Source: a virus
Length of the DNA stretch: 20,360 nt
Direction: 5' to 3' (one strand)
IMG/VR virus record: IMGVR_UViG_3300006919_014344
Location: 1-20,360 of that record
The notes under the pieces are model-generated. The model did not search any database, was not told the DNA's origin, and worked only from the letters and a program-made list of their open reading frames with translations. Positions within the stretch are counted from its first letter, which is position 1. Each line of letters opens with the position of its first letter. The position numbers were made by a program, and so were the translations under genes. Shown piece by piece: positions 4,228-5,790 of the stretch.

Positions 4228-4641
4228 ATGACAATTTTAGAAGTTTCCTTAAAGCTGTATGAATGGTTCGAAGATAATGATTCTTTTGATTTAGATAAAA
4301 ATTTTAAAAATATTTTTTTAATTTCTGAAGATGTAGATTTAGACAAGGCCACCTTGATAGGCTCTTTAAAAAAATTAGAGTCTCAAGGAGTAATATCTGG
4401 AACTAGAATAAATGAAAAAACTTTATTTATATTAAGTAAACCCCTTGCTAGTATAGATCAGGAGGTAAGTATTGATTACTCTACAGCTATAAAAATCGCT
4501 ACTGTCATAAATAATTTTTGCGATGAAATCAATGATCACAAAGATGTAGCTGATCCTGCCGCAATAAGAAGAAAAGACATCCTACACCTTGCGCTCATCT
4601 TGGAAGCTTGGCAGAAAAACAAAACCAATAGCATTGACTAG
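4228..4641 (+). CDS. small two-part protein with N-terminal winged-helix-like domain
   Basis: A 137-residue soluble, acidic protein. Residues about 1-75 look like a winged helix: helix LEVSLKLYEWFEDND, helix DLDKATLIGSLKKLESQGV, then the wing-like ISGTRINEKTLFILS. Residues about 85-137 are helical (YSTAIKIATVINNFCDEIND and KDILHLALILEAWQKN). I do not recognise a named family. It is the first rightward gene from the divergent promoter and is followed by the structured RNA, whose -35 overlaps its last codons. It may be a transcription or replication accessory protein. Transcription is predicted to start at the ATG itself, without a ribosome binding site. Confidence 0.72.
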   Translation: MTILEVSLKLYEWFEDNDSFDLDKNFKNIFLISEDVDLDKATLIGSLKKLESQGVISGTRINEKTLFILSKPLASIDQEVSIDYSTAIKIATVINNFCDEINDHKDVADPAAIRRKDILHLALILEAWQKNKTNSID

Positions 4642-4662
4642 AGCTCAAAATAACTTTATCTT
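4634..4662 (+). promoter_or_regulatory. promoter of the structured RNA
   Basis: TTGACT (4634-4639) overlapping the end of the upstream gene, a 17-bp spacer and TATCTT (4657-4662) predict a transcript starting near 4668-4670, just before the first predicted hairpin of the RNA. Confidence 0.55.
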
Positions 4663-4667
4663 CACAA

Positions 4668-4992
4668 AAAGGTGAAAATCCTTTTCAGCCTACTGAGAGT
4701 AAACAGTAAGGTTTTCCCTCTGAGGTAGCCATCGCGGAGCTTTAAGGGTTCTCTACATACAGGAGAAAAAAAAGGACGCATAGTTAATTACTATGGCAAT
4801 GCCCAGCGTGTTGAGGTAGATAGTCGTAAGCGGAGTTTTTGAGCACAGTCCCTCCCGCCTTTTAGGTAGGCTATTGCAGATTTATATCTGCTTGTATGGT
4901 GTTGTGTACCCCTGCACTTTAAAAACTGGGGCCGAAGAAAAGCTTTGGCGCATCAATACAGTACCCCCCTAACGGGGGTATTGTGTTCTTTG
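4668..4992 (+). ncRNA. candidate structured noncoding RNA of about 325 nt, class unknown
   Basis: The 420 bp between 4641 and 5062 hold no plausible gene but are less AT-rich than the genes around and full of complementary arms: 4667-4672 with 4680-4685; 4689-4695 with 4704-4711 (one bulge); 4751-4754 region with 4762-4766; ACGC 4776-4779 with GCGT 4806-4809 enclosing two hairpins (CATAGT/ACTATG and GGC/GCC); a perfect GCAGAT/ATCTGC hairpin (4876-4891); GCCGAAG/CTTTGGC (4931-4948); and a long-range match of 4724-4730 with 4869-4875. A promoter precedes it, a strong terminator hairpin ends it, and a separate promoter for the next gene follows. This points to a free-standing RNA rather than a leader. 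It does not match the signatures I know for RNase P, 6S, SRP or tmRNA. Base pairing was found by eye. Confidence 0.6.
4958..4992 (+). terminator. terminator hairpin ending the structured RNA
   Basis: An 11-bp stem (4958-4968 with 4974-4984, including five C-G pairs and two G-U or U-G pairs) around a 5-nt loop, followed by an imperfect U-rich tail (GTTCTTTG). The core CCCCCTAAnGGGGG is shared with the terminator at 2044-2057. Confidence 0.65.
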
Positions 4993-5045
4993 TCCGAGAA
5001 AAGCATTCGCGCTTGCAAAAAAATATTGATTTTTGTTCAAAATAT

Positions 5046-5051
5046 TATAAT
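5046..5051 (+). promoter_or_regulatory. -10 box of the 5062 glycosyltransferase gene
   Basis: Perfect TATAAT ending ten bases before ATG 5062, so a leader of about 4 nt. The -35 is poor; TTGATT at 5026-5031 is only 14 bp away, and the sequence before it is A-rich. Confidence 0.5.
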
Positions 5052-5061
5052 TTATTAGCAG

Positions 5062-5790
5062 ATGACTAGTAACCCACCTTCCTCTAAAGTTTTTTTAGCT
5101 ACCCCTTGTTATGGAGGAATGGTGTGTCAAGAATTCCTTCAAAGTGTATTGAAAATGCTTTACACATGCATGGTAAATAAGGTCGGCCTTCAGGTATTCA
5201 CTATTGGGAATGAAAGTTTAATTACACGAGGGAGGAATCAACTTGTGGCAGAATTTATGGCCTCAGATTGCTCTCATTTAATGTTTATTGATGCCGATAT
5301 AGAGTTTGATCCAGATGACGTATTAAAATTAATATCGCACGATAAGCCTATAGTTGTAGGAGCTTACCCGCTCAAGATTGAACCGATTAGTTACGTTATA
5401 AATACGGTTTCTGGAGAGCCAGAAAAAAATAAAAATTTAATTGAAGTCAAAGATGCGGGTACTGGGTTTATGATGATCAGAAGGGACGCTATAGAGTCAA
5501 TGCAGAAATCCTACCCAGAGCTTCATTATACGGGGGATTTAGCGGGAGATAGCTTCAGGCAGGACTTAATAGGTAAAGAAGATCATAAGGAAAAACTAAA
5601 GCAAAACCTATACAGCTTATTTGATACCTCTCACGACAAGGACGCGAATAACGCTTACCTATCAGAAGACTATACTTTTTGCAGGAGATGGCAAAGAATT
5701 AATGGTAAGATATGGTTAGATAGCACTATCAATCTTAATCATATTGGAAGAAAAATATACAAGGGCAATGTTTCTAAGATGTTTGAGTGA
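5062..5790 (+). CDS. GT-A type glycosyltransferase
   Basis: Soluble 242-residue enzyme expected to move a sugar from a nucleotide-sugar to an unknown acceptor. It opens with a beta strand and loop KVFLATPCYGG (9-19), typical of GT-A enzymes common in large phages, followed by SLITRGRNQLVAEFMAS (52-68) and the metal-binding DXD in LMFIDADIEFDPDDV (73-87, Asp77-Ala-Asp79). GAYPLK and GTGFMMIRRDAIE are further family-like stretches. A late region, DYTFCRRW, matches the position of the catalytic or acceptor-side acidic motif of GT2-like enzymes. The stop codon overlaps the GTG of the next gene (GTGA). Start at ATG is favoured by the TATAAT just upstream. Donor and acceptor unknown. Confidence 0.82.
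   Translation: MTSNPPSSKVFLATPCYGGMVCQEFLQSVLKMLYTCMVNKVGLQVFTIGNESLITRGRNQLVAEFMASDCSHLMFIDADIEFDPDDVLKLISHDKPIVVGAYPLKIEPISYVINTVSGEPEKNKNLIEVKDAGTGFMMIRRDAIESMQKSYPELHYTGDLAGDSFRQDLIGKEDHKEKLKQNLYSLFDTSHDKDANNAYLSEDYTFCRRWQRINGKIWLDSTINLNHIGRKIYKGNVSKMFE

Follow-up and report, generated by a model that had tools for sequence, protein, structure and literature searches.

Large structured RNAs encoded by phages are few, and the best known of them, GOLLD and ROOL, are still without an assigned function although their structures have lately been solved. Both form homo-oligomers, as does the OLE RNA (PMC12286853). GOLLD is a large, ornate and pseudoknotted non-coding RNA of phages and prophages, with many members longer than 800 nt; ROOL, of which the member studied measures 659 nt, is likewise large and phage-encoded and contains several pseudoknots. 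Structured RNAs from marine metagenomes and phages also include the manA, wcaG and PhotoRC motifs of marine T4-like cyanophages, which are probable cis-regulatory elements located upstream of particular gene classes (PMC2864571). The RNA described here, about 330-450 nt in length, shares with GOLLD its viral origin, ornate pseudoknotted fold and lack of an assigned function, but is about half its size or less, has another arrangement and mostly does not lie beside tRNAs. It resembles ROOL in the same general way and differs in being shorter and, at most loci, away from tRNA islands. Unlike the manA, wcaG and PhotoRC motifs, it has a promoter of its own and varied, sometimes convergent, neighbours. 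The pRNA of phi29, also structured and phage-encoded, comes from small phi29-like phages and is much smaller. In size the RNA described here is comparable to tmRNA and RNase P RNA, and tmRNA is pseudoknotted too.

Database comparison also sets the RNA apart. At the gathering threshold of Rfam 15, no match was obtained in the window (the whole 20,360-bp stretch analysed), nor any other than tRNAs in 13 more loci, and under relaxed E-values (up to 10, 5 or 0.5) no match was accepted for the window stretch or the small loci. Sub-threshold matches to freshwater-2, SCARNA20, CrcZ and CRISPR-DR53 were weak, differed between members and were attributed to chance. ARAGORN found no tmRNA, and neither the tRNA-like ends nor the tag frame of such a molecule was recognised, ARAGORN being negative and no ORF being conserved. 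An earlier claim that the locus lacks the signatures of RNase P, 6S, SRP RNA, tmRNA or group I/II introns, and is smaller than GOLLD and ROOL, thus stands. Membership of GOLLD or ROOL fails both on the Rfam covariance-model match and on length, since these RNAs occupy about 600-900 nt and the distance from promoter to next gene leaves room for no more than about 400 nt in the window, or about 450-500 nt in the case of relatives. The RNA matches no catalogued family and so, judged by its sequence, looks like a new viral RNA class; GOLLD and ROOL appear to be its nearest counterparts in kind, to both of which it would be analogous while being a member of neither.

The window is a virus fragment from IMG/VR encoding nucleotide-metabolism enzymes, glycosyltransferases and a UvsX-like recombinase; a search with PF07068, the major capsid family of T4, gave no match, nor did the controls. 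Its genes are tightly packed, and the 420 bases between the ORFs at 4228-4641 and 5062-5790 (4642-5061), which hold no ORF of at least 50 aa, form the sole gene-free gap longer than 120 bp. It is the only sizeable one because the seemingly empty first kilobase is a single frame running off the left contig end (2-991, minus strand). A syntenic relative (G001) has no gene-free gap above 120 bp in 37.9 kb, bearing out the original prediction that the gap is exceptional. The GC content of the RNA is 0.45 against 0.36 for the whole window, and exceeds that of the flanks in 32 of 34 members. Across the same 34 members no conserved ORF was found.

Homologues of the RNA were identified on 36 further IMG/VR contigs, some near-identical, so that the homologue search originally proposed gave a positive answer. 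Searching with a protein encoded further downstream led to the syntenic relative, whose contig begins just 3' of the RNA, and profiles of two downstream glycosyltransferase-type proteins led to more. In these the gap is kept at 67-68% DNA identity, and nhmmer extended the set to more distant IMG/VR contigs (E about 1e-30 to 1e-120). Patterns for the conserved core and 5' domain yielded additional homologues, a pattern for the window's own subgroup added nothing, and the upstream protein (c0) used as query for related loci returned no close relatives. Many of the 43 stretches from the first core-pattern scan lacked the surrounding motif and were judged to be chance; one such match (L198) was left out of later profiles, and a weak R1 match in L134 was rejected for sitting in an apparent coding stretch. 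The alignment comprises 34 sequences, with statistics calculated on 29 that are non-redundant. A calibrated covariance model gave a single strong match in all but one of the 29 source records, some of which are 114-178 kb long; a member outside the model-building set (L107) scored E = 0.0017, having been missed by the whole-record search. No homologue was found in INPHARED or PLSDB, 84,980 bacterial and archaeal genomes (GTDB) scanned with two exact patterns gave nothing, the patterns being strict enough for diverged copies to escape, and the open-access papers searched yielded no earlier description of the RNA.

Folding of the window RNA gave -106.2 kcal/mol compared with -89.8 +/- 5.3 kcal/mol for shuffled sequences (z = -3.1; 0 of 100 shuffles). 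The homologue L167 reaches z = -1.4 only, for which reason covariation, and not single-sequence folding, constitutes the main evidence. In the core alignment of 29 sequences, 91.0% of cells form standard pairs as against 74.2 +/- 1.0% after shuffling, compensatory (double) changes occur at 18 of 24 pairs, and the covariation score is 0.561 versus 0.239 +/- 0.014 for shuffled alignments and 0.07-0.13 when partners are slid. A model-guided alignment, which is biased toward structure, raises these values to 94.8% paired and 0.636, with compensatory changes at 17 of 24 pairs. Outside the core, the covariation score of P2 was reached by none of 500 shuffles. The strong covariation anticipated for the stems is therefore present, and the molecule is almost certainly a real structured RNA. 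Its parts are listed in Table 1.

Table 1. Features of the RNA locus, in window coordinates
Feature	Position	Strand	Evidence or remark
c0, 137-aa protein directly upstream, predicted winged-helix fold	4228-4641	+	candidate partner or regulator
Promoter, sigma70 type (TTGACT, 17-nt spacer, TATCTT)	4634-4662	+	scan; 28/34 members
Structured non-coding RNA gene	4667-5010	+	homologues on 36 other contigs; covariation; 5' end placed from the promoter, 3' end provisional
P1 hairpin (AAAAGG/CCTTTT), immediately 3' of promoter	4667-4685	+	seen in relatives' alignment with varied sequence; no statistical count
P2 hairpin (4686-4695 with 4704-4714)	4686-4714	+	95.5% of cells paired; 3 pairs compensatory
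Variable domain, far shorter in window than in most relatives	4715-4765	+	alignment
Conserved A-rich strand ahead of core, AAAAAAC in most members	4766-4773	+	alignment
P5 hairpin (4779-4784 with 4790-4795)	4779-4795	+	100% paired in 29; compensatory changes at 6/6 pairs
P6 hairpin, conserved GCGUG loop	4801-4817	+	84-90% paired; alignment
P7 (4819-4824 with 4870-4875), closes junction holding P8 and P9	4819-4875	+	91-98% paired; compensatory changes at 6/6 pairs
P8 hairpin (GCGGAG/CUCCCGC), most conserved loop UUUUUGAGCACAGUCC	4830-4858	+	100% paired (four pairs counted); compensatory changes at 2 of these
P9 short hairpin (CC/GG)	4858-4866	+	67-80% paired; weakest helix
P10 hairpin GCAGAUUUAUAUCUGC	4876-4891	+	stem in most relatives, sequence differs; no count
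P11 (4894-4901 with 4951-4959), encloses pseudoknot	4894-4959	+	swap control
H-type pseudoknot: S1 4904-4907/4914-4917; S2 4909-4912/4928-4931; A-rich linker 4918-4927	4904-4931	+	
Repeated motif, copy 1, CCGAAGAAAAG	4932-4942	+	alignment of relatives
P13 GGGGG hairpin, U-rich 3' side, terminator-like (4956-4968 with 4974-4986)	4956-4986	+	scan; all aligned relatives
Repeated motif, copy 2, CCGAGAAAAG, 3' of P13	4994-5003	+	motif in 29/30 members examined

Two details of the fold as first drawn have been revised. The long-range match of 4724-4730 with 4869-4875 is complementary as described, but the strand that is conserved and covaries with 4870-4875 is the 5' strand of P7; and the supposed enclosed multi-hairpin domain at 4776-4809 is in fact two separate conserved hairpins, P5 and P6. 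A possible H-type pseudoknot around P8, in which UGU/ACA would cross that helix, was considered and dropped, its pairs being either invariant or broken in the window's subgroup. The P6 loop alternates between GUGU(U) and a GUGA (GNRA-type) tetraloop, the latter seen in L086, L089 and L199, a switch that suggests a tertiary contact.

In the 3' domain, the strands of P11 pair better with each other than with those exchanged between members in 27 of 29 cases (mean -9.8 versus -6.5 kcal/mol). Each of the 29 members can accommodate the pseudoknot that P11 encloses. Between them they use 19 different S1 and 9 different S2 helices, with full helix replacements (for example GGCUA/UAGCC in L177, GCUU/AAGC in L190), while S1 strands exchanged between members pair in 28 of 208 combinations; this set of pairings is open to selection because it was drawn by eye and then checked by script. 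The motif CCNNAGAAAAG flanks the GGGGG hairpin on both sides. A pairing partner of its second copy was sought and none found: pairing with the 5' strand of P11 (18 of 29) and with the strand after the hairpin (14 of 29) both failed the swap control.

A pattern scan detects a hairpin at 4965-4978, and P13 could terminate transcription; the hairpin in the terminator originally predicted at 4958-4984 is real, yet its stem is longer than supposed and a conserved repeat lies downstream, so that its role as terminator is less secure. Because that repeat lies beyond P13, the transcript may run past about 4990. The 3' end would fall at about 4990 if P13 terminates, or about 5010 if the second repeat is included. 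The predicted length of about 325 nt accordingly holds as a minimum, conservation continuing beyond the hairpin and other members reaching about 400-450 nt.

The promoter, located by scan where it had been predicted, is preserved in the family. In 28 of 34 members TTGAC and TAnnnT, separated by 16-18 nt (mostly exactly 17), lie upstream of P1 at a near-constant distance, and the layout is the same whether c0 or a dUTPase gene lies upstream, indicating that the promoter belongs to the RNA and not to a fixed neighbour. A sigma-factor-like protein of about 200 aa (cluster k11, a judgement from sequence) is encoded near the RNA in L106, L158 and several other members; it could serve phage-specific transcription.

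The promoter, complex fold, conserved loops, A-rich repeats, single copy and varied neighbours point to an RNA that acts in trans by virtue of its shape. Trans action, either as an RNA-protein particle or as an RNA assembly, is the best-supported reading. The explanation preferred here, which we hold to be somewhat more likely than not, is that a clade of uncultured phages carries the locus as a non-coding RNA gene, one copy each, whose product acts in trans and likeliest as an RNA-protein scaffold. During infection, the RNA would be transcribed by host RNA polymerase and would fold into a compact, pseudoknotted molecule of about 330-450 nt presenting a GNRA-like loop, the conserved P8 loop and the A-rich pseudoknot. 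Acting in trans, it would serve an RNA-protein particle as its scaffold and offer the repeated CCNNAGAAAAG elements, together with the P8 loop, as putative protein-binding sites, and the particle might capture or reprogram a host factor belonging to the transcription or translation machinery. That the RNA is a scaffold for protein, rather than an RNA-only assembly or a ribozyme, is put at a little under an even chance, and capture of a host factor is a tentative suggestion that we regard as rather unlikely.

The winged-helix protein c0 is the first candidate partner in such a particle. It is present in all 15 larger records tested that have a strong RNA match, compared with 2 of 27 that lack one. 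An AlphaFold model of c0 (pLDDT 91) has winged-helix proteins as its best PDB matches, none below E 0.001, and a family search found no family describing it. The association is confounded by shared ancestry, which may be all that it reflects. One record with a divergent RNA (G012) is without c0, two (G017 and G018) have c0 with no RNA of the same family detected, and c0 is not adjacent to the RNA in the dUTPase-flanked arrangement.

The main rival to a protein-binding scaffold is an RNA-only homo-oligomer of the type formed by GOLLD, ROOL and OLE, with contacts made through the pseudoknot, the GNRA-type loop and the A-rich repeats. The RNA is ornate, pseudoknotted, phage-encoded and single-copy, the three precedents do homo-oligomerise (PMC12286853), and no obligate protein gene adjoins the RNA in all members. 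It is shorter than ROOL and GOLLD, however, and the tRNA islands often found near GOLLD and ROOL are atypical here (tRNA genes at 6 of 30 loci); we consider this reading somewhat unlikely. A ribozyme or self-processing RNA has a slim chance. The near-invariant unpaired AAAAAAC and UUUUNAAGCACAGUUU, together with the pseudoknot and multi-way junction, are as expected of a catalytic RNA, but no Rfam ribozyme family was matched, and no flanking exon-like or endonuclease gene was recognised.

That the RNA is a 5' leader or riboswitch acting on the next gene is very improbable. A same-strand glycosyltransferase gene does follow the RNA in the window, as it does in four close relatives, and a dNMP kinase gene in many others. 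Elsewhere the next gene encodes a membrane protein or other products, or is convergent, lying on the opposite strand in L160, L170, L172, L181, L182, L186 and L191. This variation in identity and strand already contradicts a leader, as had been argued originally, and a GGGGG hairpin whose 3' side is U-rich stands at or near the 3' end of the RNA in all aligned members. The RNA is very probably its own transcription unit, an independent trans-acting gene, to judge from the arrangement of the sequences; the description of it as a free-standing structured RNA of unknown class is thus upheld by the homologues, the covariation, the promoter and the absence of a family match. A separate promoter had also been predicted for the next gene, and the scan does not find one. 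Ahead of that gene, at 5026-5051, TTGATT and TATAAT sit within a partial palindrome that L086 and L089 also conserve; the 14-nt spacer is too short for sigma70, and the element is perhaps an operator or a phage promoter. Finally, it is scarcely credible that the locus only mimics an RNA and is a small-protein gene or, at the DNA level, an origin of replication or packaging site. It is gene-free, conserved and present once per genome, but compensatory changes that tolerate G-U pairs, like the helices of the pseudoknot, are signatures of RNA, the neighbours vary, the promoter is its own and no ORF is conserved.

Uncultured phage genomes carry RNA classes absent from Rfam, and an unrelated family equipped with covariation, a promoter, a candidate protein and a calibrated search model provides a comparison set for the roles of large phage RNAs in infection. 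In a sister phage (L108:3491-3988, identical in L109), another gene-free stretch of about 500 nt follows c0 in the same syntenic slot; it is unmatched by the covariance model of the RNA, run with filters off, or by Rfam. This stretch resembles the gap in the corresponding slot of another sister phage, L101 (2681-3217; nhmmer E about 1e-6 to 1e-8), which itself has no Rfam match, and the two independent sequences may represent a second RNA family in that slot. It is possible, though doubtful, that the RNA founds its own new class of large phage RNA and that its genome position is a slot for such RNAs; were this so, different RNAs would fill one role, perhaps as an RNA or RNA-protein particle directed at the host. 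Elsewhere in the window, a 78-aa ORF on the minus strand (2322-2558) bears a weak, below-cutoff likeness to the LSM/Sm domain (Pfam E 0.04-0.07); an Hfq-like RNA chaperone beside the RNA would be of interest.
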